In this document: piece after piece, positions 15,753 to 31,378 of the stretch | Numbering within the stretch: position 1 is the stretch's first letter | Layout of the letters: every line of letters begins with the position of its first letter | Origin: an uncultured Prevotellaceae bacterium | Lineage (GTDB): Bacteria; Bacteroidota; Bacteroidia; Bacteroidales; Bacteroidaceae | Assembly (NCBI GenBank): GCA_900318995.1 | Contig: ONMR01000020.1 | Location: 1-54,251, forward strand | Direction: 5' to 3' | DNA length: 54,251 nt | Notes under the pieces: generated by a model | Databases searched by the model: none | What the model saw: the letters and a program-made list of their open reading frames with translations, nothing else | Told to the model about the DNA's origin: nothing | Made by a program: the position numbers and the translations under genes

Positions 15753-17447
15753 TTATTTATAGGCATTTTCATGCACACCCTTTACCGCACGTCCGCTGGG
15801 ATCGTTCAGTTTACTGAAACTTGCATCCCATTTGAGGGCCTCTGCAGTTGAGCAGGCTACGCTTGGAACACTGGGTACGCAGCGTGCGGCAGACTCACTT
15901 GGAAAATGCTCCTCAAATATCGTGCGGTAGTAGTATTCCTCCTTGTTCATTGGGGTGTTTATGGGGAAACGCTCTGCCGCATGAGCCATCTGCTCATCAG
16001 TAACTGCCGCCGATGTAATCTCCTTGAGCGAATCTATCCAACTGTAACCTACTCCGTCGCTGAACTGCTCTTTCTGACGCCATGCAACGCTCTCGGGCAG
16101 CATATCGGCAAATGCCTCTCGCACAACACGTTTCTCAATCTCATGGCCAGGACACATCTTGGCCGCAGGGTTCAGGCGCATTGCCACATCCAGGAACTCC
16201 TTGTCTAAGAACGGAACGCGTCCCTCAACGCCCCATGCTGCAAGTGACTTGTTTGCACGCAGGCAGTCATAAAGGTGCAGTTTTGATATTTTGCGCACTG
16301 TCTCATCGTGGAATGCCTGTGCATCGGGTGCCTTATGGAAATAGAGATATCCTCCAAACACCTCATCGGCACCCTCACCGCTCAGTACCATTTTGATACC
16401 CATGCTGCGTATAACGCGGGCAAGCAGGTACATCGGCGTGCTGGCGCGTACAGTTGTAACATCGTATGTCTCAATGAAATAGATTACATCTCTTAAAGCA
16501 TCCAATCCCTCCTGCACCGTGTAGTTTATCTCATGGTGTACGGTACCTATATGCTCGGCCACCTCACGCGCCTTGGCCAGATCCGGAGCACCCTTAAGGC
16601 CCACAGCAAACGAGTGCAGACGCGGCCACCAAGCCTCCTGCTGGTCATCGGTCTCAACACGGCGAGCGGCGTTTTTCTTGGCAATGGCCGATATCACCGA
16701 ACTGTCCAGACCACCTGACAGAAGCACTCCGTAAGGAACATCGCACATAAGCTGACGCTTTACTGCAGCCTCAAGGGCATCGTGAAGATCCTGTATATCG
16801 GCCTTGTTATCCTTGACGGCATCATACTTGAACCAGTCACGGGTATACCAGCGCTCCACCATTCCGGTGCGGCTGCTCAGGAAATGCCCCGGCAGGAAGG
16901 GCTCGTACTCAGTGCAGATACCCTCAAGAGCCTTTAGTTCACTGGCTACGCAGATATGGCCTGCGGCATCTTTTCCTATATATAGAGGTATTACACCTAT
17001 CGGGTCTCGGGCAACCAGATACTCGTCACGTTCGGCATCATAAAGCGCAAAAGCAAATATGCCGTTCAGACGCTCCAGCATGCGGATAAAGTCCTCCTGA
17101 CTGCCGCCTGCACGCACGGCATCGCGGTAAAGTGCCAGGATAACCTCACAGTCGCTTCCGGTACTGAATGTGTATCGGCCCTCATACTCGCGGCGTATAG
17201 CCTGATGGTTGTAAATCTCACCGTTGACGGCCAGCACCTGCAGACGGTCCTCGCTGAAAAGGGGCTGACCGCCCGACTGGGGATCTACGATACTCAAGCG
17301 CTCGTGAGCCAGTATGGCTGATCCTCCGCACCAGATTCCGCTCCAGTCCGGACCGCGGTGACGTATACGGCGGCTCATCTCAAGAGCCTGCTGACGTAAC
17401 TGCTCCGACTGCTGCTTAATCCTGAAGATTGAAACTATTCCACACAT
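15753..17447 (-). CDS. asnB: Asparagine synthase (glutamine-hydrolysing)
   Basis: AsnB (564 aa) makes asparagine from aspartate, ATP and glutamine. It begins MCGIVSIF, exposing the class II amidotransferase Cys1 after Met removal. The glutaminase domain covers about residues 1-190. The synthetase domain begins around 225 with the PP-loop SGGLDSSVIS and continues with MVLSGEGADEVFGGY. Length is close to the E. coli enzyme. It is preceded by an Asn/Gln-rich leader peptide and a terminator hairpin (17492-17661), so expression is probably attenuated by Asn/Gln supply. The next gene, glnN, has its own promoter in the 149-nt gap. Confidence 0.97.
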   Translation of the reverse strand: MCGIVSIFRIKQQSEQLRQQALEMSRRIRHRGPDWSGIWCGGSAILAHERLSIVDPQSGGQPLFSEDRLQVLAVNGEIYNHQAIRREYEGRYTFSTGSDCEVILALYRDAVRAGGSQEDFIRMLERLNGIFAFALYDAERDEYLVARDPIGVIPLYIGKDAAGHICVASELKALEGICTEYEPFLPGHFLSSRTGMVERWYTRDWFKYDAVKDNKADIQDLHDALEAAVKRQLMCDVPYGVLLSGGLDSSVISAIAKKNAARRVETDDQQEAWWPRLHSFAVGLKGAPDLAKAREVAEHIGTVHHEINYTVQEGLDALRDVIYFIETYDVTTVRASTPMYLLARVIRSMGIKMVLSGEGADEVFGGYLYFHKAPDAQAFHDETVRKISKLHLYDCLRANKSLAAWGVEGRVPFLDKEFLDVAMRLNPAAKMCPGHEIEKRVVREAFADMLPESVAWRQKEQFSDGVGYSWIDSLKEITSAAVTDEQMAHAAERFPINTPMNKEEYYYRTIFEEHFPSESAARCVPSVPSVACSTAEALKWDASFSKLNDPSGRAVKGVHENAYK

Positions 17448-17491: not shown

Positions 17492-17523
17492 AAAAAAAAG
17501 ACTGATCAGATTGACCAGTCTTT
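17492..17523 (-). terminator. Attenuator hairpin in the asnB leader
   Basis: On the minus strand AAAGACTGGTCA pairs with TGATCAGTCTTT (12 bp, one G-T) around an ATC loop, followed by a T run. It lies 30 nt after the leader-peptide stop and 44 nt before the asnB ATG, so it would stop transcription before asnB. Its 5' arm CTGGTC (17513-17518) is exactly complementary to GACCAG (17566-17571) in the last codons of the leader ORF, giving a competing antiterminator pairing. Confidence 0.85.
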
Positions 17524-17553
17524 ATTATGTTTTATGTTTGTTATCTACAATGA

Positions 17554-17661
17554 TTATCTTTCCCGCTGGTCTAAAGGAGTAACCATCAAAACCTGATTAT
17601 TATTCTGGTTCTGATTATTCTGCTGATTATTATTGGTTACAAAGACCAAACCTTTAGACAT
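17554..17661 (-). CDS. Asn/Gln-rich leader peptide of asnB
   Basis: A 35-codon ORF starting at ATG 17661, about 17 nt after the predicted transcription start. Residues 10-23 are NNNQQNNQNQNNNQ (9 Asn, 5 Gln; codons almost all AAT and CAG). The tail is VLMVTPLDQRER, closely resembling the glnK leader tail (VPMVIPFDR). After the last Gln of the run come seven codons, then GAC CAG, which can pair with the terminator 5' arm; the stop codon follows 9 nt later. The likely role is to stall the ribosome when charged tRNA-Asn or tRNA-Gln is scarce, freeing the antiterminator and permitting asnB transcription. Translation and function are inferred from architecture. An in-frame GTG at 17673 is an alternative start. 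Confidence 0.8.
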   Translation of the reverse strand: MSKGLVFVTNNNQQNNQNQNNNQVLMVTPLDQRER

Positions 17662-17684
17662 AACTCGCTTCACTAATTTGATTG

Positions 17685-17715
17685 CAAATTTAAGCACTAT
17701 TTTCTATCCGCCAAA
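17685..17715 (-). promoter_or_regulatory. Promoter of the asnB leader transcript
   Basis: The minus strand carries TTTG (17712-17715), exactly 19 nt, then TAAATTTG (17685-17692), a full match to the Bacteroidetes consensus TTTG-N19-TAnnTTTG. The predicted start is near 17678, just upstream of the leader ATG, so peptide, hairpin and asnB are on one transcript. Confidence 0.8.
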
Positions 17716-17815
17716 CAAAATTCTTGAAAAATATCATTTTATCACAAATAATTCATCAAATCCGATAAATAGTCAAGAATTATTCATTTTTGCATATCAT
17801 TTAGTCATGTATTGT

Positions 17816-18790
17816 TCAATATTTCCTGCGCAAAAGATTTCGGAGCGGAATCAGCAGCTTTGGCTTAAGTGTCTTGACGTGACGTTCTATCTTATCATCG
17901 GTGATATATTTAAAAGGTATCAGGATTCCGGAATCATAGATATCTCCGAATTCATCATTTATGCCGGTCCCGAAATACTGCATCTTGGGCGACAGGTTCA
18001 TATATGAGTTGACCAGAGGCGGTATGCTGACACCAAAATCCGATACAAACGCCTTGAGATTCCGGTAATCCTCCTTGAATGTCAGTCCCTTAAGCACTTT
18101 CATGTATTTGATGGGGCGTTTTACCCTGGCGGGTTTGACCAGTTTTACGCGCCGCATCTTGGCCGCACCGAACCATTTGTTAAGGAACACCTGAATCATC
18201 TCACGCGCCGGTGCGGGATACTGGCGGTATATGGTCATCTTGCCAAAGAAGTATTTCATCCTACCCTTATACATTACCATAAGCGCTCCTAATCCATCAA
18301 ACAGATTGTCAAGGGCAAATATGCTCTTGGCTCCGCCCTTGCTGCTCTGGTAGTCTATGGTTACAAACGAGCGGCCCAGTTCAATTGTATGCTGGAGATC
18401 GTTCTTTATGAATTTCTTTGAGAAACGGAACATGTGCGATGACGTAAGTATGGGCTGACCGTATTTATCATAGACTATATCATCACACAGCACATAACGG
18501 TATCCGCCGATGATACGTTCCGCCTCAGGATCCCAAAGGACCAGCTGCTTGTATCCGTATGCGGCATCGGTATCAAACTTGTCTATGTCAAGTTCACGTC
18601 CGGTGCCTCCGCCTCCCGCACGGAATGCCTCCTCGCGCAGACGGCCAATCTCGCGGATTACATCCGGAGCATTGGTGTTATCAACCACGTAAATCTCGTT
18701 ACCTCCGTGGTTGGTTGTACGCAAAAACCTGTCTTTGGTCAGTTGAGACTTAAGTATTTCCGTGCTGACAGGATCAATTATCTTCTTCAT
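17816..18790 (-). CDS. GlsB-like N-acyltransferase (GNAT fold, hemolysin-annotated family)
   Basis: A 324-aa protein of the family that includes OlsB and the Bacteroides glycine N-acyltransferase GlsB, which N-acylates an amino acid with a 3-hydroxy fatty acid to make amino-lipids. Supporting stretches are DVIREIGRLREEAFRAGGGGTG near residue 64, ERIIGGYRYVLCDD, IELGRSFV and KYFFGKMTIYRQYPAPAREMI. The family match is from memory of conserved blocks; substrate (glycine, serine or other) is not determined. GlsB is often beside a PlsC-type acyltransferase (GlsA), but no such gene is adjacent. It lies between the porin and asnB on the same strand with its own candidate promoter. Confidence 0.7.
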   Translation of the reverse strand: MKKIIDPVSTEILKSQLTKDRFLRTTNHGGNEIYVVDNTNAPDVIREIGRLREEAFRAGGGGTGRELDIDKFDTDAAYGYKQLVLWDPEAERIIGGYRYVLCDDIVYDKYGQPILTSSHMFRFSKKFIKNDLQHTIELGRSFVTIDYQSSKGGAKSIFALDNLFDGLGALMVMYKGRMKYFFGKMTIYRQYPAPAREMIQVFLNKWFGAAKMRRVKLVKPARVKRPIKYMKVLKGLTFKEDYRNLKAFVSDFGVSIPPLVNSYMNLSPKMQYFGTGINDEFGDIYDSGILIPFKYITDDKIERHVKTLKPKLLIPLRNLLRRKY

Positions 18791-18844
18791 AGCAAGTATG
18801 TTATGTGTTAATTATTTTCTACCGGCCGTCCGGTATTGCCGATG

Positions 18845-18852
18845 CTAAGGTA
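18845..18852 (-). promoter_or_regulatory. Candidate -7 element for the acyltransferase gene
   Basis: The minus strand reads TACCTTAG, one mismatch from TAnnTTTG, about 55 nt upstream of the ATG at 18790 and downstream of the porin terminator. No consensus -33 box at 19 nt is evident. Confidence 0.35.
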
Positions 18853-18910
18853 TGAACGAAGATTTACCATTCCAACCAAAAAGATTTTTATGGAAAATAT
18901 TACCACAAAC

Positions 18911-18949
18911 AAAAAGGCGCGCAGAATCTGGTTCTTCTGCCACGCCTTT
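18911..18949 (-). terminator. Terminator after the TorF-type porin
   Basis: On the minus strand AAGGCGTGGCAGAA pairs with TTCTGCGCGCCTT (13 bp with one bulged base) and is followed by TTTTTGTTTG. It lies about 30 nt after the porin stop and ends the glnK-amtB-porin run. Confidence 0.75.
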
Positions 18950-18979
18950 AAGCCGGACATTACCGAATGAATGCTCTTT

Positions 18980-19672
18980 TCAGAACGATATGCCCACGGT
19001 AAGATAACTCATCTCTGAACACGGGTTAACTGTCAGTCCGGCCGATAAAGGCAAACTGAAACTCTCTGTTATCTCAAGTTCTTTTGAAGCAGTCAGTGAT
19101 ATGTTGGTTACCGCAAAGCCATCGGTTCCATAGAACGGACTCTCAAATGGGACAAAGCCCAATGCTGCAGTCCAGTCCGCCCCGCCCAGGCTGAAGGGAG
19201 CAGCCAGTTCACAATAGGAACTGAAAGCACTGCCTCCATCGGCCTTTAGGTCATTGCCTGCAAAGTTTGTATACCAGCTTATTGATGCAAACCCCAAGTC
19301 ATAACCTGCAAATGCCTCAAACACATGGTTTGTGCTTTCCTTTGCATACTTGAAATAACGTCCGTAAGGCTCCGGTCCGGCATTGAACCAATAATCGGTA
19401 ACTCCAACGCTCAATCCGGCAACACTGTAACTGAGAGTGATATCAAACTCTTTTGTATCGGTCCAGTTGACTATTCCGGTGCTACCCCAGAATGTCAGGT
19501 CAAAACCGGCTGCACTTACGCCAAGTGTGGGTTGTATGGCAGCCTCACCAAGATCACATCCACGCCATATATATCGGCTTACGATATCGGCGCCAACTGT
19601 TGTTTCAATCTCTGCGTGCAACGGGCAGACCGTTGCTATCAATGTCAATGCTATTGAGAAAAACTTTTTCAT
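18980..19672 (-). CDS. TorF-family putative outer-membrane porin
   Basis: A 230-aa protein with a clear signal peptide (MKKFFSIALTLIATVCPLHA). The alternating beta-strand pattern is typical of the Gcw_chp/TorF putative porins: VGADIVSRYIWRGCDLGEAA at the start of the mature chain, repeated GFDLTFWGST and GYDLGFASISWYTN strands, and a terminal Phe (YLTVGISF) as in many barrel proteins. It sits immediately downstream of amtB, so an outer-membrane path for ammonium or small nitrogen compounds is a reasonable inference. The unusual inverted repeat 19711-19837 separates it from amtB. Confidence 0.75.
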   Translation of the reverse strand: MKKFFSIALTLIATVCPLHAEIETTVGADIVSRYIWRGCDLGEAAIQPTLGVSAAGFDLTFWGSTGIVNWTDTKEFDITLSYSVAGLSVGVTDYWFNAGPEPYGRYFKYAKESTNHVFEAFAGYDLGFASISWYTNFAGNDLKADGGSAFSSYCELAAPFSLGGADWTAALGFVPFESPFYGTDGFAVTNISLTASKELEITESFSLPLSAGLTVNPCSEMSYLTVGISF

Positions 19673-19698
19673 AGTGATAATTATTTATGGTTATTGAT

Positions 19699-19767
19699 TT
19701 AATTGTAAATAATTGAAAGCCGGACCCCAAGAACCGGGAATTCATTCTCCCCATTCATTATGGACAT
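19699..19767 (-). CDS. Tiny ORF upstream of the porin (possible leader)
   Basis: A 22-codon ATG ORF ending 26 nt before the porin ATG. It contains NGENEFPVLGV, faintly like the (N)NQVPMVIP tail of the asnB and glnK leaders, but it lacks their Asn/Gln run. Its middle overlaps the 3' arm of the inverted repeat 19711-19837. It may be a chance ORF; no homology can be established. Confidence 0.2.
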   Translation of the reverse strand: MSIMNGENEFPVLGVRLSIIYN

Positions 19768-19837
19768 AGTAAAGATTTTAAATACGAATCAAATACAGGT
19801 TGAACAAATCCCGTATCCCGCGATCCGGCTTTCAATT
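19711..19837. repeat. 14-bp inverted repeat enclosing the amtB-porin gap
   Basis: AATTGAAAGCCGGA at 19711-19724 and its perfect reverse complement at 19824-19837 enclose 99 nt, from just after the amtB stop to shortly before the porin ATG. In RNA this would be a long-range closing stem. No T run follows, so it is not a standard terminator. It could be a processing site, a regulatory fold or the ends of a small insertion. Confidence 0.55.
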
Positions 19838-19844
19838 AAAGGAA

Positions 19845-21089
19845 TCAGATGTTGTAGGCGGTTTCTCCGTGCTCGTAGATATCAAGACCCTCCTCCTCAA
19901 CTCTGGGTTCAACGCGGATTCCGTGAACCTTCTTGAGGATTATGAATGTAAGCATTCCAAGACCGAATGACCATGCACATGTTACAAGCGAACCAAGAGC
20001 CTCAACACACACGAAGTGCCAGCCACCACCATAGAACAGGCCGCCTTCAACGGCAAACATACCAGTCATGAGTGTACCCAGGATACCGCATACTCCGTGA
20101 ACCGATACAGCACCAACGGGATCATCAATCTTGCAGACCTTATCTATCAGGGCAACTGAACCAACCATTGCAACACCGCATACAGCACCAATGATTGCTG
20201 CACCGCCTATTGATACCAGGTCGCAACCGGCTGTGATACCTACCAGACCCGCCAGGATGCCGTTGCATACCAGCGAGAGTGAAGGCTTGCCGTAAACCAG
20301 CCAAGTAAGGAACAGCACAGAAAGTCCGCCTGTAGCAGCAGCCATGTTGGTTGTGCACATAACGTGTGAGATAGCGATTGCGTTCTCAGCACCGCTGGCA
20401 GCCAGCTGTGAGCCCGGGTTGAAACCGAACCAGCCAAACCAGAGGATGAACACACCCAGAGCGCCGAATGTCAGGTTGTGGCCGGGGATAGCACGGGATT
20501 CGCCCGTCTTTGAGTATTTACCGATACGGGGACCAAGCACCATGGCACCGGCCAGCGCAATCACACCACCGCAGGAATGAACGACTGTCGAACCGGCAAA
20601 ATCATGGAATCCAAGCTCGCTCAGCCAGCCGCCGCCCCATGTCCAATGGCCCTCAATGGGATAAATGACCACCGAAATAATGATTGAAATCAGAATATAC
20701 ATAGAGAACTTGGTCCTCTCGGCCATACCGCCCGATACTATAGTGGCGGCAGTGGCGCAGAATACGGTCTGAAAGATCAGCGTGCACTCTGCAGGAACAT
20801 TGCTGTCGCCTATGAACGTCCAGTCAAACAGATGCAGACCGCCAATGAATCCGTTGTTTACGCCATGCATCAGCCCAAAGCCTATCATCCAGAAAAGGAA
20901 TGATCCCACCATGAAATCCACAAAGTTTTTCATAAGTATGTTGGCGGTGTTCTTGGAGCGGGTAAAACCAGCCTCCACCAGCGCGAAACCGGGCTGCATA
21001 AAGAACACCAGCATTGCTGCTATCAATACCCAGACTGTATCCAGTCCGCTTATACTACTCTCACTTACTGTTGTGATAATGTCTTCCAT
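19845..21089 (-). CDS. amtB: Ammonium transporter
   Basis: AmtB/Amt family (414 aa), an inner-membrane trimeric channel with about eleven transmembrane helices, conducting ammonium/ammonia. Hallmarks are MLVFFMQPGFALVEAGFTRSKN near the N-terminus, WTWGGGWLSELGFHDFAGST, the pore histidines in VVHSCGG and SVHGVCGILG, and LWFGWFGFNPGS. It lies 22 nt downstream of glnK, the conserved glnK-amtB pair in which P-II plugs the channel when nitrogen is plentiful. The leader attenuator upstream of glnK should control both genes. Confidence 0.97.
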   Translation of the reverse strand: MEDIITTVSESSISGLDTVWVLIAAMLVFFMQPGFALVEAGFTRSKNTANILMKNFVDFMVGSFLFWMIGFGLMHGVNNGFIGGLHLFDWTFIGDSNVPAECTLIFQTVFCATAATIVSGGMAERTKFSMYILISIIISVVIYPIEGHWTWGGGWLSELGFHDFAGSTVVHSCGGVIALAGAMVLGPRIGKYSKTGESRAIPGHNLTFGALGVFILWFGWFGFNPGSQLAASGAENAIAISHVMCTTNMAAATGGLSVLFLTWLVYGKPSLSLVCNGILAGLVGITAGCDLVSIGGAAIIGAVCGVAMVGSVALIDKVCKIDDPVGAVSVHGVCGILGTLMTGMFAVEGGLFYGGGWHFVCVEALGSLVTCAWSFGLGMLTFIILKKVHGIRVEPRVEEEGLDIYEHGETAYNI

Positions 21090-21111
21090 AACTTGATTGA
21101 TTTAATTGTTT

Positions 21112-21459
21112 TTACTTCTTGTCGGCCAGAACCGTATCACCGTGTTCTCCGGTACGGATTGACCAAGTGTCATCTACAGGACTCACGAATATTCTGCCAT
21201 CACCCACCTGACCGGTGCGGGCTGCTCCCATTATGGCATCGATGGCGGGCTGTACAAACTGATCACGGCATATAATGGTTATCTCTATACGTGAAATAAT
21301 ATCAGTGCTGTACATGACGCCACGGTATATGCGGTCCTGACGGGCCTGGCCGATGGCATGGACCTCGGCGTATGAGAACCAGTTGATGTCGGCCTCAAAA
21401 AGAGCCTCCTTGACATCTTCAAACCGGGTTTTCCGGATGATTGCTTCAATCTTTTTCAT
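21112..21459 (-). CDS. glnK: Nitrogen regulatory protein P-II
   Basis: A 115-aa P-II signalling protein that binds ATP/ADP and 2-oxoglutarate and controls AmtB. MKKIEAIIRKTRFEDVKEAL is the standard first strand and helix. The T-loop region reads WFSYAEVHAIGQARQDRIYRG, keeping the tyrosine equivalent to Tyr51 but otherwise divergent from the enterobacterial KGFGRQKGHTELYRG. KIFVSPVDD-type sequence near the end is present as RIFVSPVDDTWSIRTGEHGD. Whether the tyrosine is uridylylated cannot be told. It is the first gene after the Asn/Gln leader peptide and attenuator. Confidence 0.95.
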   Translation of the reverse strand: MKKIEAIIRKTRFEDVKEALFEADINWFSYAEVHAIGQARQDRIYRGVMYSTDIISRIEITIICRDQFVQPAIDAIMGAARTGQVGDGRIFVSPVDDTWSIRTGEHGDTVLADKK

Positions 21460-21504
21460 TTGTGTTTTGTTTTGAGGTTAATTATTGTGTTTTGATGCAT
21501 CGTA

Positions 21505-21540
21505 AAAACAAAAAAGGCCGGTCTCAATAAGACCAGCCTT
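21505..21540 (-). terminator. Attenuator hairpin in the glnK-amtB leader
   Basis: On the minus strand AAGGCTGGTCT pairs with AGACCGGCCTT (11 bp, one G-T) around TATTG, followed by TTTTTGTTTTT. It lies 28 nt after the leader-peptide stop and 45 nt before glnK. Its 5' arm GGCTGGTC (21531-21538) can pair over 8 bp with GACCGGTC (21579-21586) at the end of the leader ORF. Confidence 0.88.
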
Positions 21541-21568
21541 AAATTATTCCTTATTAAAAATACAACAG

Positions 21569-21688
21569 TTACATACCTGACCGGTCAAAAGGTATAACCA
21601 TCGGAACCTGATTATTCTGGTTCTGATTATTCTGCTGCTGATTATTATTCAGCTGAACAGTGGTTATATTCTTAAAACCGATAAACAT
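21569..21688 (-). CDS. Asn/Gln-rich leader peptide of glnK-amtB
   Basis: A 39-codon ORF from ATG 21688. The open frame extends to 21754, but that part covers the promoter. Residues 14-27 are NNNQQQNNQNQNNQ (8 Asn, 6 Gln). Seven codons later GAC CGG TC begins the antiterminator, and the stop follows 7 nt after it. The tail VPMVIPFDRSGM matches the asnB leader tail, and the DNA around it is also similar (CAGGTT, ATGGTTA, CCTTT, GACC). Proposed role: the ribosome stalls on Asn/Gln codons during nitrogen starvation, the antiterminator forms and glnK-amtB is transcribed. The peptide itself is probably only a sensor. Confidence 0.82.
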   Translation of the reverse strand: MFIGFKNITTVQLNNNQQQNNQNQNNQVPMVIPFDRSGM

Positions 21689-21719
21689 AAAAATGTATTG
21701 TTGTTTCTGATTTCTGGTG

Positions 21720-21727
21720 CAAAGGTA
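21720..21727 (-). promoter_or_regulatory. -7 element of the glnK leader transcript
   Basis: The minus strand reads TACCTTTG, a full TAnnTTTG match, placing the start near 21713, about 25 nt before the leader ATG at 21688. A TTTG lies 24 nt upstream rather than 19, the same spacing as at glnN. GTACAA occurs at 21725-21730 and again at 21813-21818, recalling the GTACAAAA motif at glnN. Confidence 0.6.
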
Positions 21728-21855
21728 CAACGCATTCTGATACATTGTTCTCAAAAAGACGAAAATTTTTACCTTATTCTATCAAATTTCCAAAATTTCT
21801 GACATTTAGTAAGTACAACTAACAAATTTGCAACATCTTGATATACAACATCACA

Positions 21856-21886
21856 TTTGTCATCTCTATGAAAATGAGTATATTTA
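21856..21886 (+). promoter_or_regulatory. Promoter of the CotH/lamin-tail surface protein
   Basis: TTTG at 21856-21859, exactly 19 nt, then TATATTTA at 21879-21886 (one mismatch from TAnnTTTG). The ATG is 28 nt downstream. It is divergent from the glnK leader promoter. Confidence 0.65.
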
Positions 21887-21914
21887 CATCCAATAAAAAG
21901 GAACTGACCTGATT

Positions 21915-24900
21915 ATGAAACTCTCAAACTACCTTTCGGTCATGGCCGTGCTGACCATAATGGCAGCAATGCCCGCTAAAGCACAGATTATAATAAATGA
22001 GGTACTGGCATCAAACGGCAGCACCAATACGGATCCTGATTACGGGGCAAACGCTGACTGGATAGAACTGCACAATGCCGGACAGGCCGATGTAAACCTG
22101 CGCGGATGGTCAATCACAGACAACCTGAACAAACCCGCCAAGTTCGTTCTGCCCGACACAACCGTCAATGCCGGAGGCTTTCTGCTGATATGGTGCGATG
22201 ACTTGGGTACCGGACTACACGCCGGATTCAAGTTGAGTGCCGACGGTGAGGAGGTGGGTCTTTTTGATGCTGACGGCAAGATGGTTGACAGCATGTCATT
22301 CGGACCGCAATACGGCGATGTGAGTTTTGGCCGTTCCTTAGATAATGCCGGATTGCCGGTCTTCTTCATGATCCCCACTCCCGGTGCCGCCAACACCACT
22401 CAGGGGTATACAGGCAGATCCAACCAGCCGGTTATACTGACACAGGGCGGAGCCTATGCGGGATCCGTTACGGTAACCGTCACCAATGATCAGGGAGGTG
22501 TGGTTTATTATACCACTGACGGTTCAGAGCCTACCAAAGAGTCAAATGTATATACTTCTCCCCTCACCTTCACCCAGACTACGGTATTCAGGGCACGCAT
22601 ACTGGAGGACGGCAAGATGCCCGGTCTGACCAAGACCATGACATATTTCCTTAATGATGAGTTCCAGGGCCACAGTCTGCCCATAGTATCGCTGGCAACT
22701 GAGAGCGGCAACTTCTGGGACTCCCAGCATGGAATTTACGGTTGGACCAACGCACATAACGAAAAGGCCGATTTTGAGATTCCGGTAAACATAGAACTCT
22801 ATGAGAACAACGGCAGCGACAGGGCTGCGTTCAACGAGCCTGCAGGCGTAAAGATAAACGGCCTGTATGCATGGCAACTGCCGCAGAAGATGCTTGGAGT
22901 ATATTTCAAGAAGAAATACGGCGAGAGCAAACTGTCATACCAGCTGTTCCATGACGACGGGCGCAACGAGTTTGATGATTTTGCGCTGCGCGCATCGGGC
23001 AACGACTGGAACTACACCATGTTCCGTGACGGCCTGCTCCAGCAGGCATGCCGCAGGGGCGGGCTCAATCTCGCCCTGCAGGCGTTCCGTCCTTCGGTAG
23101 TATATCTTAACGGAGAACTCCTGGGAATCCACAATATTCGCGAAAAGGTCAACGAGGAGTATATAGAAACCCGTTACGGCCTTGAAGCCGGTACATTTGA
23201 CATGATTGAAGGCGACCAGAACGTCGAGGCCGGCGATTGGGAAGAGTGGAACCATTACAAGGAACTGTGGCAGAAAGACCTGAGCGTACAGAGCAATTAT
23301 GACGCTCTGGCTGCCATTATGGACGTGGAGAACTACACCGATTTCATGGTTGCACAGATTTGGAGCCACAACACATCGGTCAACCACAACCCTATGGCCT
23401 GGAAGCCTAAGGAAGGAGGCGTATGGCGCTGGATATTTACTGACGGCGACCGTGGTTTCAACAATTATGCCGATGACTATGCCGACTGGTATGCCGGTAA
23501 GGCCAACATGCCTTTCGGATCAATGCTCAAGAATGAAGGTTACCGCAACTATTTCTGCAAACGTGCCGCCGACCTCCTGTTTACGGCGTGCAATCCGGAG
23601 GAGATACAGCGCCAGGTGACGGAGCACAGCAAGGATATAGAGCCGCTTATGGAACAGCAGGTTCAGAGATGGCTTGGCACCAGCAGTTCCTACAGCGGCA
23701 ATGCCCTTACATCGACCCGTCAATGGCGCAGCCGTATCAGTTATCTGCGTGATTTCTGCAACGGCCGCCCGATAGTGCTGCTTTGGGATATGTATGAGAA
23801 CTACGGTACCGGAGCTCCAGCCCTGCTCACCCTTACCGGCAAGAATGGTTTTGAGTTCAACGGCCTGGCTATCAACAAGGACAAGTGGTGCGGATCATAC
23901 CCCACCGATATGGAGATAACCCTTACCGCCCGACAGCGTGTAGGTTACACGTTCAAGGGTTGGCGTGAGAATGCAGTTAAAAAACTGATTTCCACCGGCA
24001 ACGAATGGAAATATCTTGATGACGGAAGCACCCCCGCATCATGGTATACCACCTCTTTTGATGACTCCGGATGGAAAGCGGGAGCATCACCATTAGGATA
24101 TGATACCGACAACAAGATGACAGGCCTGATAAAAACCACCGTGAACTACGGATCGGAAAACTCCAAATATGTCATCACATATTTCCGCCGCAAATTCACG
24201 GTTGAGGATGATCCCGCATCTTACCTGCAGATTAAGCTCCGCCTTCTGCGCGATGACGGAGCGGTTGTATTCATCAACGGCAAGCAGATTATCCGAAGCA
24301 ACCTCAGGGAGAACTTTGAATCCAATCCGCTGGCTGACAATTACGCCATTCCCAAGCGTGCCGCCATAAGATATGTCACGTACGATATCGACCCGTCCTG
24401 GCTGCATCAGGGAGAAAACACCATAGCAGTGGAGGTACACCAGACATCAAGGAGCAGTTCCGATATCATTATGGACGTTGAACTTCTTGCGGTGCTTAAC
24501 CAGACTGCATCACAGAACCGGCTGAGCGGACAAAACAGCCCCACAATCAAGTTATCCATTGATTCCGATATAGCAGTGGAGGCCATGTATGAGCCATCCG
24601 GCCTTAACATGCTTCCCGATACCATATTCACCGATATCACCCTGCAAAAGTCCAAGTCCCCCTATTATACCGCGGCCGATGTCACCATCGTCAAAGGCGC
24701 ACGCCTTACCGTCGAGCCGGGTGTAGAGATCCGGTTTGCACCAAACTCATGCATGATCGTGCATGGAGGCCTTACCGCACAGGGCACCAGCTCGGACAGC
24801 ATACGTTTTGTACTCAACCCGCAATATGCCGGACAGTCCTGGGGAGCCGTCTGCTTCATAAACAGCGATTCCAAGTCAACGCTCAGCTATGCCACCATGC

Positions 24901-26246
24901 GGGATGCCTGTCAGGGTCCTCGCCTTTACAACTGTGTGGCAGCCATATCGGCCTACAACTGCCGGCAACTGGTGCTTGACCATCTGAACATAACGGATGT
25001 AACCAGCAATCCCATCGCTGCCCGTTACAGTGACGTGACGCTTACAAACAGCATAATACACAGCCGTGTTACCGGTGACCTGATTAACATCAAGTACGGT
25101 TCCGGACGTGTGGAGCACTGCACTTTCATAGGCAATGACCAGGTTGACACCGATGCCATTGACTTTGACGGCATAAACGGCGGAATAATCAGGGATGTGG
25201 TGGCACACCACTTCCTTGGCGACAACAGTGACGCCGTGGATATAGGCGAGCAGGCCGTGGGTGTGATAATTGACAGCCTGATGGCATACAATATAACCGA
25301 CAAGGGCATAAGCGTAGGCCAGCGCTCAAGCGTAAAGGTGAGCAACTCAACGTTCATTCAGACCAACATGGGCATAGCCGTAAAGGACTCATGTCATGCC
25401 GATGTGGACAAATGCACATTCTTTGCCGTAGCGACTCCGGTGGCCTGCTATGAGAAGGTTGAAGGTCGTCTGGGCGGAAATGCCGTAGTAAATGAATGCA
25501 TACTTTCAAACAGCTATGACCAGACATATCAGTGTGATGAAAGGTCCAGCATCAGGTTCAGCGGTTCGCTATCAGACGGTGACACGCTCTCCATTGGCAA
25601 CCTCTATGGCGACCCGAGGTTTACATCGGCCACGGAGTTCCTGTTAACGCCTGCCGACCTGAAGATTGGCTCTCTGTACATGCCTGAAACCCCGCAGATG
25701 GAGCCCGTGATAAGTGAAATATGCTACCACCCCACGCTTGATTCAGAGTCTGAGTACATAAGGATTTACAATCCTGCCGATGCCCCCTTTGACATAAGCG
25801 GATACGTACTAAGCCAGGCCTTTGACTTTACATTCCCGGACGGAAGCCTGATTCCGGCCCATGCAAGCGCCTATGTTGCGGCCGATGCCTCCAAACTCAC
25901 GCCTAAAGTCAATGGTGCGCAGGTTTGGCAGTGGAGCGATGGGAAACTCTCCAACAACGGAGAGTCGGTGCGTCTCAGCAATGCGGCGGGCATAGTTGTT
26001 GATCAGGTAAGCTACATGAGCGTGGCTCCATGGCCCGTATCGGAACAGTCAGGCACAACGGTACTGCTGCTCCGTGACCTGAGTGCCGATAACCACATGG
26101 CGGCCAACTGGACCCTCAAGCAGTATCCTAATGATGTGGAACTGATACCTGCAGCACCGGGTACGGACATCATCTATGATCTGAACGGCCGTCCTGTAGA
26201 AGGACAGCCCCGTGGCATAGTGATAATCAACGGCAGGCTATACTTT

Positions 26247-26255
<9 letters not shown>
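21915..26255 (+). CDS. Large exported multidomain protein: lamin-tail, CotH-like and beta-helix domains
   Basis: A 1446-aa protein with a signal peptide (residues 1-23). In order: a lamin-tail domain (IIINEVLASNGS ... WIELHNAG ... GWSITDN, about 24-150); a chitobiase-like C-terminal fold (VYYTTDGSEPTKES, about 180-240); a CotH-kinase-like region (LPIVSLATESGNFWD to about 640, with LRASGNDWNYTMFRDGLLQ and WRWIFTDGDRGFNNY); a carbohydrate-binding-like module (LRDDGAVVFINGK, about 790); a right-handed beta-helix (about 900-1230); a second lamin-tail domain (ISEICYHPT ... IRIYNPAD, about 1265-1380); and a C-terminal YDLNGRPV...GIVIINGRLYF tail, common in exported Bacteroidales proteins. CotH domains can phosphorylate proteins, but no activity is claimed. 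It lies alone amid nitrogen genes on the opposite strand. Confidence 0.8.
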
Positions 26256-27890
<1,635 letters not shown>

Positions 27891-29273
27891 TCAGCTTTTG
27901 TGATTGTAAAGGTTTGTCGGATAATCACCGTTAAAGCAGGCGGTACAGAGCTCGCATCGGCCCATATCCCTGCCCGATGCCTTATAGAGCGATTCCAATG
28001 ACAGGTAGTACAACGAGTCGGCACCTATGTACTCACGTATCTCCTCAACGGTATGGCTGGAGCCGATAAGCTCCTCGGATGTACCCGTATCTACCCCGTA
28101 GTAACAGGGATATGCGTATTTTGGACTGGCAATGCAGACATGGACCTCGGTAGCCCCCGCTTCACGCAGCAAGCCCACGATACGGCGTGACGTGGTACCG
28201 CGCACAATCGAATCGTCAATAAGAATAACGCGCTTTCCGTTCACTATGCTGCGCACTGGCGACAGTTTCATACGGACGCCCTTGTCCCGCATCTCCTGCG
28301 TAGGCTGGATGAACGTACGTCCCACGTATTTGTTCTTGAGAAGACCCATCTCATACGGTATTCCGCTGGCCTCGGCATAACCCATGGCGGCACTCAGGCT
28401 TGAATCCGGGACACCAACCACGATATCGGCATCGACCGGATGCTCCTCATATAGCAGACGGCCAGACAGTTTGCGGAACGAGTGCACGTTACAGCCCTCA
28501 ATATCGCTGTCCGGACGCGCAAAGTAGATATACTCCATCACGCACATGCGGTGACTGCGCAGTTTTGAATAGTCATTGGAGCGTATGCCATGATGGTCTA
28601 TAGTAATAATCTCACCCGGATTGACATCACGTATGAACTCTGCACCTATGGCGTCGAATGCGCAGGTCTCACTGGCTACCACATACCCTTCGCCCAACCT
28701 TGCGATCGAAAGCGGATGAAATCCGTACTTGTCACGGCAGGCGTAAATTCTGTTGGGAGTCATAATAACCAGTGAGAATGCCCCTTCTATCATGTTCAGT
28801 GCATTGATAAGATTTATGATACGGTCCTCCTCACTTGGATCCTTCTTGATAAGATGCGCAAAGAGTTCGCTGTCCGATGTGGTCTGCAACAGACTGCCGC
28901 GACGTTCCAGATACATACGCAGTTCACGGGAGTTGATGATGTTTCCGTTATGCGCAATGGCAAAATTCCCGGTATAATGATGGAACGTGAACGGCTGTAT
29001 GTTTTCCAGACCGCCCACATTGGTAGTGGGATAACGCACATGGCCTATAGCAATGTTGCCGGTCAGTTCGTCAAGGTGCTTCTCGCCAAAAATCTCTATC
29101 ACCAGACCGGCACCCTTGTGCAGGTGCATCTGCCCGTCGGCATCGGCCGACACTATTCCGCAACCCTGCTGACCGCGGTGCTGCAGGCTGTGCAACGCAT
29201 AGTAGGCATACTGGGCGGCATTCTCCACACCGTATATCCCAAACACTCCGCATTCGTGATGTAACTCTTCCAT
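27891..29273 (-). CDS. purF: Amidophosphoribosyltransferase
   Basis: PurF commits PRPP and glutamine to purine synthesis. With start 29273 it is 460 aa: MEELHHECGVFGIYG puts the class II amidotransferase Cys at position 8, as expected with a short propeptide. The phosphoribosyltransferase domain has the PRPP loop VILIDDSIVRGTTSRRI. The open frame extends to 29345 over the end of glmS, which is not credible as coding. The C-terminal RCELCTACFNGDYP suggests Fe-S cysteines as in B. subtilis-type PurF. It lies 10 nt after glmS and 3 nt before pyrG. Confidence 0.97.
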   Translation of the reverse strand: MEELHHECGVFGIYGVENAAQYAYYALHSLQHRGQQGCGIVSADADGQMHLHKGAGLVIEIFGEKHLDELTGNIAIGHVRYPTTNVGGLENIQPFTFHHYTGNFAIAHNGNIINSRELRMYLERRGSLLQTTSDSELFAHLIKKDPSEEDRIINLINALNMIEGAFSLVIMTPNRIYACRDKYGFHPLSIARLGEGYVVASETCAFDAIGAEFIRDVNPGEIITIDHHGIRSNDYSKLRSHRMCVMEYIYFARPDSDIEGCNVHSFRKLSGRLLYEEHPVDADIVVGVPDSSLSAAMGYAEASGIPYEMGLLKNKYVGRTFIQPTQEMRDKGVRMKLSPVRSIVNGKRVILIDDSIVRGTTSRRIVGLLREAGATEVHVCIASPKYAYPCYYGVDTGTSEELIGSSHTVEEIREYIGADSLYYLSLESLYKASGRDMGRCELCTACFNGDYPTNLYNHKS

Positions 29274-29283
29274 ATTAGCGGAA

Positions 29284-31128
29284 TTATTCAACGGTAACTG
29301 ATTTGGCCAGGTTACGCGGCTGGTCCACGTCGCGCCCTTTGGCAATGGCTATGTGATATGCCAGCAGCTGCAGCGGAATGACGCTGAGCAGCGGCACCAG
29401 GCACTCCTCGGTGTCCGGTATCTCAAACGAGTAGTCCGATATGCCCTTGACATCCTTATCGCCCTCGGTCACGATGCTTATCACCCTGCCCTTACGAGCC
29501 TTGACTTCCTGAATGTTGCTCAGGATCTTGTCGTAATGGCCACGTTTGGGGGCTATCACCACAACCGGCATCTCATCGTCAATAAGGGCAATTGGACCGT
29601 GTTTCATCTCGGCTGCGGGATAGCCCTCGGCATGTATGTAAGATATCTCCTTGAGTTTTAGCGCACCCTCCAGGGCAATCGGATAGTTGTAGCCGCGTCC
29701 CAGGTAGATGAAGTTGTGCGCGTATGTAAATGTCTTGGCAAGTTCGGAGATTTGCTTGTCATGCTTGAGTATCTTCTCAATCTTGGCAGGAATATGCGGA
29801 AGTTCCGCAATGATGCGTTTCCTTAAATCATCCGATACGGTACCTTTCTCCTGCGCTATATTGAGCGCAAGCAGCAACAGTGTCTCAACCTGAGCAGTAA
29901 ACGCCTTGGTAGACGCCACACCAATTTCAGGGCCGGCATGAGTGTAACAGCCCGTATCGGCGGCACGAGCAATCGATGAGCCCACCACATTGCATATCCC
30001 AAACAAAAACGCACCCGATGCCTTGGCCAGCTGCATGGCTGCCAGAGTATCGGCCGTCTCACCCGACTGCGATATGGCAATCACCACATCATCGGGATAG
30101 ATAACCGGATTGCGGTAACGGAACTCCGATGAGTACTCCACCTCAACCGGAATGCGTGTAAGCTCCTCAATCAAGTATTTGCCTATAAGCGCAGCGTGCC
30201 ACGATGTTCCGCAGGCGCATATTATGATACGGCGGGCCTTGAGCAGACGGTCCTTATGGTCTATCACGCCCGACAGCTTTACAATTCCCAGTTCCGGATG
30301 CAGGCGACCGTTCATAACGGTCCGTGCCGTATCCGGCTGCTCATGAATCTCCTTGAGCATGAAGTGGGCAAAACCGCCCTTCTCTATCTGACTCAGGTTA
30401 AGTTCCAGTTTCTTGATGACTGTTGTCTGCTCAACACTTCGTAAGTCAGTGATTTTAAGATCCTTGCCGCGTTCAATAAAGGCTATCTGCTCCTCACCCA
30501 GATAGACCACGCGGTCCGTGTATTCAATGATCGGGGTGGCATCGGACCCAATCAGAAATTCGTCATCGCCAACTCCTATTATAAGAGGACTTCCCTTGCG
30601 TGCTGCAATCATGCGGTCGGGTTGGGTCTTGTCAACAATAACGATGGCATACGCGCCGATCACACTGTTAAGAGCCAGCGGTACAGCCTCCTCAAGGGTA
30701 ATTGAGTGGCTGTCCATTATGTATTGGATAAGCTGGATTATCACCTCCGTATCGGTCTCACTCTTAAAGTGATAGCCCTGGTTCTGGAGCTCGGTCTTAA
30801 GTGAGCGGTAGTTCTCTATGATACCATTATGGATTAGCGCCAGATTCCCGGATTCCGAGAAATGTGGATGGGCGTTGATGTCATTGGGCTCTCCATGAGT
30901 GGCCCAGCGTGTATGGGCTATGCCCACACTGCCGCTGATATCCTTACCCTCGATGGCACGTTCCAGGTCTGCCACCTTACCCTTGGTCTTGTAAATGACC
31001 AGATTGCCGTTGTCATTGATAAGCGCTACGCCAGCGCTGTCGTAACCGCGATATTCAAGGCGGGAGAGCCCCTTAAGCAGTATCGGGCATGCCTGTCGTT
31101 TACCGATATAACCTACAATTCCGCACAT
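29284..31128 (-). CDS. glmS: Glutamine-fructose-6-phosphate aminotransferase (isomerising)
   Basis: GlmS (614 aa) makes glucosamine-6-phosphate for peptidoglycan and LPS. MCGIVGYIGKRQACPILLKG gives the N-terminal nucleophilic Cys. RLEYRGYDSAG and GIAHTRWATHGEP are in the glutaminase domain. Two SIS sugar-isomerase domains follow (CGTSWHAALIGKYLIEEL; GRGYNYPIALEGALKLKEISY), ending DVDQPRNLAKSVTVE. No glmS-ribozyme-like sequence was recognised upstream; instead there is an Asn/Gln leader peptide and hairpin. It is the first gene of glmS-purF-pyrG, all three glutamine-using. Confidence 0.97.
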   Translation of the reverse strand: MCGIVGYIGKRQACPILLKGLSRLEYRGYDSAGVALINDNGNLVIYKTKGKVADLERAIEGKDISGSVGIAHTRWATHGEPNDINAHPHFSESGNLALIHNGIIENYRSLKTELQNQGYHFKSETDTEVIIQLIQYIMDSHSITLEEAVPLALNSVIGAYAIVIVDKTQPDRMIAARKGSPLIIGVGDDEFLIGSDATPIIEYTDRVVYLGEEQIAFIERGKDLKITDLRSVEQTTVIKKLELNLSQIEKGGFAHFMLKEIHEQPDTARTVMNGRLHPELGIVKLSGVIDHKDRLLKARRIIICACGTSWHAALIGKYLIEELTRIPVEVEYSSEFRYRNPVIYPDDVVIAISQSGETADTLAAMQLAKASGAFLFGICNVVGSSIARAADTGCYTHAGPEIGVASTKAFTAQVETLLLLALNIAQEKGTVSDDLRKRIIAELPHIPAKIEKILKHDKQISELAKTFTYAHNFIYLGRGYNYPIALEGALKLKEISYIHAEGYPAAEMKHGPIALIDDEMPVVVIAPKRGHYDKILSNIQEVKARKGRVISIVTEGDKDVKGISDYSFEIPDTEECLVPLLSVIPLQLLAYHIAIAKGRDVDQPRNLAKSVTVE

Positions 31129-31181
31129 AAAAAAACCTTTAATAAAGGGTGAAGGCTGATTCTAACTGAACCAGCCTTCAC
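31129..31181 (-). terminator. Attenuator hairpin abutting glmS
   Basis: On the minus strand GTGAAGGCTGGTTC pairs with GAATCAGCCTTCAC (14 bp, one G-T) around AGTTA (31149-31181). A second small hairpin, CCTTT/AAAGG, follows, and then seven T residues run directly into the glmS ATG. The 5' arm GGCTGGT (31170-31176) can pair with ACCAGTC (31227-31233) in the leader ORF. Because the T tract touches the start codon, translational control of glmS is an alternative to termination. Confidence 0.7.
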
Positions 31182-31215
31182 TCAAATTATCCAATAAGTA
31201 TTTCCAAAATCTCCG

Positions 31216-31290
31216 TCATATTATCCGACTGGTGAAACAACACGGGGAAACCGGAATCTGATTATTATTCAGATTCTGCTTGTCATTCAT
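31216..31290 (-). CDS. Asn/Gln-rich leader peptide of glmS-purF-pyrG
   Basis: A 24-codon ORF from ATG 31290. Residues 2-11 are NDKQNLNNNQ, then IPVSP, echoing the NNQVPMV(I)P tail of the glnK leader in shorter form. Eight codons after the last Gln comes ACC AGT C, able to pair with the downstream hairpin's 5' arm; the stop follows 8 nt later. A weaker example than the asnB and glnK leaders in Asn/Gln number, but with the same spacing and position. Inferred to sense Asn/Gln charging and tune glutamine-consuming biosynthesis. Confidence 0.65.
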   Translation of the reverse strand: MNDKQNLNNNQIPVSPCCFTSRII

Positions 31291-31347
31291 TTGGTTAGAC
31301 AGACAGTTATATGTAACCTTTCCCTCCATTATCATTTCAAATCGTCG

Positions 31348-31378
31348 CAAAAATACGCAGAAAAATTCAATTTGCAAT
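31348..31378 (-). promoter_or_regulatory. Promoter of the glmS leader transcript
   Basis: The minus strand has ATTG (31375-31378, one mismatch from TTTG), 19 nt, then TATTTTTG (31348-31355), a full TAnnTTTG match. The predicted start is near 31341, about 50 nt before the leader ATG. It lies just after the GH27 gene, for which no strong terminator is seen, so read-through into the leader is possible. Confidence 0.65.

Follow-up and report, generated by a model that had tools for sequence, protein, structure and literature searches.

Candidate transcription attenuators with asparagine and glutamine codon runs precede nitrogen genes in an uncultured Prevotellaceae bacterium

The contig ONMR01000020.1 of an uncultured Prevotellaceae bacterium (contig C40 of genome G000, 2.5 Mb), whose whole length of 54,251 nt is the window analysed here, carries three leaders that directly precede glmS, glnK and asnB, all on the minus strand. 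Each leader consists of a promoter-like box, a short upstream open reading frame (uORF) with a run of asparagine (Asn) and glutamine (Gln) codons, an antiterminator segment located close to the stop codon, and a hairpin that can pair with this segment through its 5′ arm. Judged from its sequence, each of them is probably a ribosome-mediated transcription attenuator that senses the charging of tRNA-Asn and tRNA-Gln. From the anatomy of the leaders, their conservation, the reuse of one antiterminator/terminator frame, its attachment to nitrogen genes and the presence of a glutaminyl-tRNA synthetase gene, we infer stalling of the ribosome, termination, and starvation for Asn or Gln as the signal. 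The leaders were first read from the sequence and the distances were then measured by script; their parts are given below with the basis of each in brackets.

asnB leader, minus strand
17685..17692, promoter −7-like box TAAATTTG (sequence)
17554..17661, uORF MSKGLVFVTNNNQQNNQNQNNNQVLMVTPLDQRER, 15 of 35 codons Asn or Gln (sequence, script)
17593-17634, 14-codon Asn/Gln run NNNQQNNQNQNNNQ (sequence, script)
17566..17571, antiterminator GACCAG within the uORF end, partner of CTGGTC in the hairpin arm (pairing)
17497-17523, intrinsic terminator hairpin AAAGACTGGTCA/TGATCAGTCTTT, with the U-tract reaching 17492 (sequence, covariation)

glnK leader, minus strand
21720..21727, promoter −7-like box TACCTTTG (sequence)
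21569..21688, uORF MFIGFKNITTVQLNNNQQQNNQNQNNQVPMVIPFDRSGM, 16 of 39 codons Asn or Gln (sequence, homologues in congeners)
21608-21649, Asn/Gln run NNNQQQNNQNQNNQ (sequence, script)
21579..21586, antiterminator GACCGGTC, 8 bp with GGCTGGTC (pairing)
21510..21540, intrinsic terminator hairpin AAGGCTGGTCT/AGACCGGCCTT with U-tract (sequence, covariation)

glmS leader, minus strand
31348..31355, promoter −7-like box TATTTTTG (sequence)
31216..31329, uORF MEGKVTYNCLSNQMNDKQNLNNNQIPVSPCCFTSRII, 10 of 37 codons Asn or Gln (sequence, script)
31273-31278 and 31258-31269, runs QN and NNNQ (sequence, script)
31227..31233, antiterminator ACCAGTC, 7 bp with GGCTGGT (pairing)
31149..31181, hairpin GTGAAGGCTGGTTC/GAATCAGCCTTCAC (sequence)

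The boxes have the form TAnnTTTG, which we take to be the Bacteroidetes promoter consensus, and lie 23, 31 and 18 nt 5′ of the uORF start in the asnB, glnK and glmS leaders, respectively. The initial annotation of this DNA had described a fixed geometry of the three leaders, which the script reproduced: in the same order, the last Gln of the run is followed by 21, 21 and 24 nt up to the antiterminator, the antiterminator by 9, 7 and 8 nt up to the stop codon, and the stop codon by 30, 28 and 34 nt up to the hairpin (28-34 nt had been claimed). The hairpin 5′ arm AAG(A/G)CTGGT, said to be common to all three, and the tail QV-MV-P-D-R, said to be shared by the asnB and glnK peptides, are also present. 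In asnB and glnK, an intrinsic terminator is found between uORF and gene, i.e., a hairpin with a U-tract whose arms covary.

In the proposed mechanism, RNA polymerase would transcribe the uORF with a ribosome close behind. With Asn and Gln tRNAs charged, the ribosome would proceed to the stop codon and cover the CCRGYC-type segment at or beside it, the masking zone at the stop codon being set by the known size of the ribosome footprint; the GGCTGG-type arm would then be left free, the terminator would fold and transcription would end. If Gln or Asn were short, the ribosome would stall in the Asn/Gln run, about 20 nt 5′ of the segment in most leaders, and the segment would be able to pair with the arm, which would block the terminator and let the nitrogen genes be transcribed. 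Glutaminyl-tRNA synthetase was found above cut-off in G000 and in 14 of the 15 congeners searched, with the 15th (G010) having it in two pieces; since the gene is encoded, the charging of Gln-tRNA can follow free glutamine.

The switch was followed in an alignment of 32 leaders (A4). The antiterminator consists there of CCRG and its flanks, in most cases CCRGYC, and the 5′ arm of the terminator reads GRCYGGY. At least 6 contiguous standard base pairs between the two, within an 8-bp frame, are present in 32 of 32 leaders, a count that is partly built in because the searches for two of them (L066, L074) required complementary segments and the models contain such segments. The register differs between groups, with the asnB leaders of g1 and the A-type glnK leaders using the 5′ register GACCAG/CTGGTC and the majority of the others CCRGYC/GGCTGG. 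Of 256 antiterminator cells, 85.5% are paired, as compared to 7 to 46% with the partner shifted in position. The terminator covaries strongly, with changes on both sides at 5 of 10 pairs (reached by 4 of 500 shuffles) and 23 such cells (0 of 500), although kinship of the sequences inflates this test and the corresponding one for the antiterminator. The terminator 5′ arm is under constraint from two partners. Distances within the uORF region were measured in 30 of the 32 leaders, with L309 showing no uORF within the limits and a spurious pick in L138 dropped. Relative to the first base of the stop codon, the end of the 6-nt segment ranges from 14 nt 5′ to 16 nt 3′ of it; in 17 of 30 leaders it is 7 or 8 nt 5′, and in L148 and L149 the segment stands just 3′ of the stop. 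The distance from the last Asn/Gln pair to the segment is 10 to 45 nt, and 22 to 29 nt in 24 of 30. When 20 representative leaders were folded as RNA cut before the 3′ arm, the antiterminator helix was present in the minimum free energy structure of 15.

Conservation was examined in 25 genomes of the genus, G000 and 24 congeners, whose upstream regions were collected from protein searches in which the leaders were not used. The glnK leader is present in all 16 genomes with glnK, G000 included. Fourteen of these were recognized by reading, one near a contig edge (G021) by the covariance model R1 (see below), and in the divergent G019 the leader precedes the gene of a putative outer-membrane protein (OMP) that itself lies 5′ of glnK. 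An asnB leader was found in 16 of the 17 genomes with asnB, the asnB of G019 having no leader of its own. The glmS loci are more varied: 10 of 19 have a peptide leader, four a hairpin without the full peptide and five neither. In 29 of 30 glnK and asnB uORFs, the frame is intact from the homologous start to the homologous stop despite differing lengths of the Asn/Gln run, whereas the spacers between stop and hairpin differ by single bases, which fits a translated leader. The ratios of nonsynonymous to synonymous change in these uORFs were 0.54 and 0.85, so the peptide sequence itself is only loosely kept.

The reuse of one frame in separate operons was followed with R1, which was built from 24 leaders of glnK and asnB only and run on the 25 genomes of the genus. 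Of 40 matches with E ≤ 1e-3, 38 were located 5′ of nitrogen genes by coordinates or reading, and the other two were a leader of glnK type located where a contig ends (G020:C35) and a gene-end terminator (G010:C131). The majority are glnK and asnB leaders, training set included, but seven belong to types that were not trained (four of pyrG, two of glmS and the OMP-glnK leader of G019). For glmS the model performs poorly: only two of the 10 peptide leaders of that gene are within the threshold of 1e-3, and the next ones have E values of 0.0027 and 0.00285. Covariance models and scripts located additional copies 5′ of pyrG, of OMP-glnK-amtB, of a second amtB followed by asnB, and of glnN. The segment YNCLSNQMNDKQN of the glmS leaders recurs exactly in two of the five pyrG leaders read and nearly so in one, not in the other two; that it is common to both types points to duplication. 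The earlier suggestion of a candidate Asn/Gln-tRNA-sensing regulon made of one copied module fits these matches, a model of glnK and asnB leaders having found those of pyrG, glmS and OMP-glnK.

The reading as an attenuator is less secure for glmS. Its hairpin lies 20 nt 5′ of the glmS start and is not followed by a clean U-tract (CACCCTTTATT), which makes its assignment as an intrinsic terminator uncertain; moreover, in four of the 19 glmS loci (L084, L086, L090, L092), the hairpin GGCTGGTTC is kept with the uORF lost or shortened, so that it may have a role of its own. It is conceivable, if on the whole doubtful, that in glmS the hairpin acts on translation or RNA stability and not on termination, with the Asn/Gln uORF affecting the translation of glmS. 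On the other hand, the glmS leader has the same antiterminator frame as the other leaders, and U-rich tails are found 3′ of like hairpins in three of the four pyrG leaders detected by R1.

Further loci of the genus may be mentioned beside these. In four congeners (L087, L088, L089, L091), glmS lacks its own leader and directly follows a gene whose end by eye resembles carB, which also codes for an enzyme dependent on glutamine; at these loci the model R2 (see below) returned nothing with E ≤ 1 in the 7.9, 8.1, 8.1 and 3.0 kb taken. The gap between asnB and glnN of nine loci (L063, L064, L065, L066, L069, L070, L071, L073, L074) holds a further leader 5′ of glnN, with CCAGCC and a GGCTGGCC hairpin, which has an Asn-containing peptide in six and lacks the Asn run in three. 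No fourth leader was seen in the asnB-glnN gap of the window, and an exact-motif search, in which L072 had no sequence at this place and L077 was left out, did not find the glnN leader in G000 or in four congeners (L062, L067, L068, L076).

Outside the genus, 32 loci centred on amtB and titled Bacteroidales or families placed there were fetched, and leaders were found in six (L145, L146, L147, L148, L169, L149). In UBA1189 (L147) they stand 5′ of glnK and asnB, in metagenome-assembled genomes (MAGs) from horse faeces (L148) and water-buffalo rumen (L169) 5′ of glnK, and in the rumen MAG Tb.RUG.329 (L149) 5′ of glnN-gltBD-glnK-amtB. None was detected in the Prevotella, Bacteroides and Tannerella loci of this set (Prevotella ruminicola 23 being outside it) by R1 and a script whose negatives are not exhaustive, as it required an ATG start and missed L149, which starts with GTG. 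A second covariance model, R2, was built from 19 diverse leaders, the three of the window included. In the window and four other loci it scores these three, which are part of its training set, at E ≤ 7e-18, and its next match (E 0.0021) overlaps the glnK hairpin on the opposite strand.

Run on 393 genomes of the order, R2 is unspecific at E ≤ 0.01, with matches in 215. Among the matches listed were 29 order-level loci outside G000. Plain hairpins, for the most part 3′ of gene ends, account for 27 of them, and no Asn/Gln-rich uORF was seen there by eye or regular expression; the other two are true leaders that belong to a genus of another family (g167). Leaders are present in 10 of the 11 genomes of g167, 5′ of OMP-glnK-amtB, of a second amtB then asnB, and of glnN-gltB, and in the 20 genomes of its family that were searched, the matches read in other genera were not leaders. 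Of 52 new loci found with R2, 44 were read, the remaining eight being re-finds (the known leaders L262, L263, L270, L273, L274, L280 and L281, and the terminator L283). Among the 44, 33 lie 5′ of glnK, OMP-glnK, asnB, amtB2, glnN, pyrG or glmS and 11 elsewhere. The script reported an Asn/Gln-containing uORF in 29 of the 33 (L303, L304 and L308 were resolved by later measurement; L265, with a GTG start, is the same leader as L149) and no Asn/Gln-rich uORF at the 11. Equal occurrence upstream of unrelated genes, which the initial annotation had named as evidence against a regulon, was thus not borne out by the matches inspected.

The near constancy of the two segments across leaders and families, and the hairpins that remain where the peptide or the Asn/Gln run has been lost, could also be accounted for by an RNA-binding protein or antiterminator that acts in trans, binds the CCRGYCGG and GGCTGGT segments and controls the terminator, the uORF being accessory. 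This is improbable, as it leaves the Asn/Gln runs, the conservation of the frame and the position of the segment near the stop unexplained, and the invariance of the segments is already explained by pairing with two partners; where CCRGYC departs from its usual form (in the asnB leaders of g1, GACCAGCG, and in A-type glnK leaders), the pairing register shifts and 6 bp are kept. More improbable still is an arrest peptide, in which the nascent tail QV-MV-P-D-R and not the supply of codons would stall the ribosome on free glutamine or another ligand. The tails of the asnB and glnK leaders are alike in the genus, but part of the tail coincides with the antiterminator and RNA pairing therefore explains some of the likeness, other tails occur in leaders with the same RNA frame, and nonsynonymous change is common, as the ratios above indicate. 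The least credible explanation, which was rejected, is that the hairpins are ordinary terminators, either of upstream genes or of short transcripts with no function, and that the Asn/Gln uORFs arose by coincidence. Like hairpins are indeed common in Bacteroidales, but no Asn/Gln-rich uORF was found at the 27 plain order-level hairpins or at the 11 matches located elsewhere, and the leaders recur 5′ of the same nitrogen genes in two families.

Attenuation by Asn and Gln codons is the preferred explanation, and several observations have to be set against it in addition to the partly built-in pairing count and the missing U-tract and peptide-less hairpins of glmS. The covariation of the antiterminator is weak: changes on both sides were seen at two pairs and in seven cells, which 353 and 104 of 500 shuffles reach, respectively. 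They comprise A-U/G-C at the outer pair and A-U to G-C in L169; a further position changes from U-A to C-G via U-G. The initial annotation had proposed that a lack of compensatory changes in this pairing would refute the idea; the pairing is kept in all A4 leaders and some both-side changes exist, so that this outcome was not obtained, but the statistic (104 of 500) is weak. Five of the 20 cut-RNA structures, that of the window glmS leader included, have 0 or 3 antiterminator base pairs, and the folding energies of the cut leaders overall do not differ notably from those of shuffles. The distance from the last Asn pair to the segment is as short as 10 to 13 nt in three pyrG leaders. In the asnB and the A-type glnK leaders, the segment itself contains a Gln codon, and a ribosome stalled at this codon would mask the segment. 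L065 has a frameshifted asnB leader, three congeners (L063, L065, L073) have glnN leaders in which the hairpin and CCAGCC are kept without the Asn run, the glnN leader of G019 (L138) has no Asn or Gln at all, and the leaders of f19 are rich in Asn plus Arg/Lys, with little Gln. The peptide-less glmS hairpins, the Asn-poor glnN leaders and the Arg/Lys codons of f19 look like decay or re-tuning of copies; alternatively, the hairpin could have a second role.

The genes concerned by Pfam, NCBIfam and tblastn, namely asnB, glnN, gltB, glmS, pyrG, amtB and glnK, are those of Asn and Gln metabolism, and as targets they are physiologically sensible: ammonium uptake with the PII protein, glutamine synthesis with glutamate synthase (GOGAT), and enzymes that consume the amide of glutamine. 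On balance we lean towards a dispersed nitrogen regulon that would be run by one duplicated RNA/uORF module, the Asn/Gln run with the CCRGYC/GGCTGG switch, in which the ribosome would be the nitrogen sensor. The module would have been copied between operons in at least two families, with its codons shifting from Asn/Gln to Asn/Arg/Lys, and would replace an NtrC-like protein, a type of regulator for which no search was made. As part of the same claim, sensing would cover PII, ammonium transport, glutamine synthetase III/GOGAT, asparagine synthase, GlmS, PurF and PyrG.

Ribosome-mediated transcription attenuation is known from the trp, his, leu, ilv, thr and phe operons. The leaders described here share with these a uORF with clustered regulating codons, a terminator in the leader, a mutually exclusive antiterminator and, in the proposed mechanism, masking by the translating ribosome. 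They differ in combining Asn with Gln codons, in standing before separate operons for ammonium uptake, PII, glutamine synthetase III and a number of glutamine amidotransferases, and in having a single antiterminator/terminator frame that recurs from operon to operon and in two families of Bacteroidales. Firmicutes are known to have T-box riboswitches for Asn, and cyanobacteria to have riboswitches for glutamine (glnA RNA, Downstream-peptide). In these, too, asnB- or gln-type genes are controlled by an RNA leader that responds to Asn-tRNA or to glutamine, whereas sensing here would go through a translated uORF. T-box and known riboswitches were rejected for the window, where Rfam gave no match at gathering threshold; between 17400 and 31500, only four sub-threshold matches with E ≤ 1 were returned, from families other than T-box or glutamine riboswitch. 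One of the sub-threshold matches considered, to L20_leader at 21503-21625, was taken as chance (31.1 bits vs. 58.7).

To our knowledge, little is understood of how Bacteroidales control their nitrogen assimilation. The claim that no Asn/Gln attenuation system of this form has been characterised agrees with the searched part of the openly accessible literature, in the titles and abstract beginnings of which no description of Asn/Gln attenuation or of such leader peptides in Bacteroidetes was found. As far as the available excerpts go, papers on Flavobacterium psychrophilum (PMC9723704) and on Bacteroides thetaiotaomicron (PMC7366714) point to candidate leader-peptide attenuators that they do not specify further. 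They resemble the present leaders in being short ORFs in Bacteroidota 5′ untranslated regions that suggest attenuation, and differ in that neither Asn/Gln codons nor any of these genes are named in the excerpts (PMC9723704, PMC7366714). According to excerpts of a further paper, a similar cluster of Prevotella ruminicola 23 (PII, amtB, PRU_1977, asnB) changes its transcript level 38 to 69 fold with ammonium, the direction being given in conflicting ways (strongly induced under limiting ammonium vs. higher on non-limiting ammonium) and the regulator not being named there (PMC5552732). Attenuation as a kind is known; what would be notable here is which amino acids are read, which genes are controlled and that a single switch is used repeatedly. 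If true, it would provide a direct mechanism of nitrogen control for part of the phylum and couple ammonium uptake to glutamine-consuming biosynthesis, and Asn and Gln would join the amino acids that are known to us as being read by attenuation. The layout would let a stalled ribosome switch genes on under nitrogen shortage in some gut and rumen Bacteroidales.

By Pfam and NCBIfam, the minus strand of the window carries, in this order, glmS-purF-pyrG, glnK-amtB, the gene of a 230-aa protein to which no family was assigned, one for a GlsB-like acyltransferase, and asnB, glnN, gltB and gltD. The genes next to the leaders, all on the minus strand, are the following.

29284..31128, glmS, first of glmS-purF-pyrG, three glutamine amidotransferases (Pfam, NCBIfam)
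27891..29345, purF, amidophosphoribosyltransferase; ORF as listed, the real start probably internal (NCBIfam TIGR01134)
26283..27887, pyrG, CTP synthase (NCBIfam TIGR00337)
21112..21459, glnK, PII protein, followed by amtB (Pfam P-II)
19845..21089, amtB, ammonium transporter (Pfam Ammonium_transp)
15753..17447, asnB, glutamine-hydrolysing asparagine synthase B (Pfam, NCBIfam)
3′ of asnB, glnN (glutamine synthetase III), gltB and gltD (Pfam)

Two genes lie between amtB and asnB. The protein at 18980-19672 was assigned no Pfam or NCBIfam family. A putative OMP of 230-250 aa, so labelled from its signal-like N-terminus, accompanies glnK-amtB (window 18980-19672; L132, L255, L257) and stands 5′ of glnK in other lineages. 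The gene at 17816-18790 is for a GlsB-like glycine N-acyltransferase (NCBIfam NF053696, above cut-off) and is located within the nitrogen cluster.

A search of G000 with the pattern (MAN)8 returned as Asn/Gln-only runs the asnB leader, the glnK leader and two tracts that are not leaders, one an Asn/Gln-rich region (C39:8247-8287) in a long ORF that by eye resembles Rho and the other an Asn tract (C39:44757-44782) inside a second long ORF; the remaining matches include Lys or His codons. Finally, one to three Cys codons are found shortly 5′ of the antiterminator in glmS and pyrG leaders, e.g., at 31237-31242 of the window.

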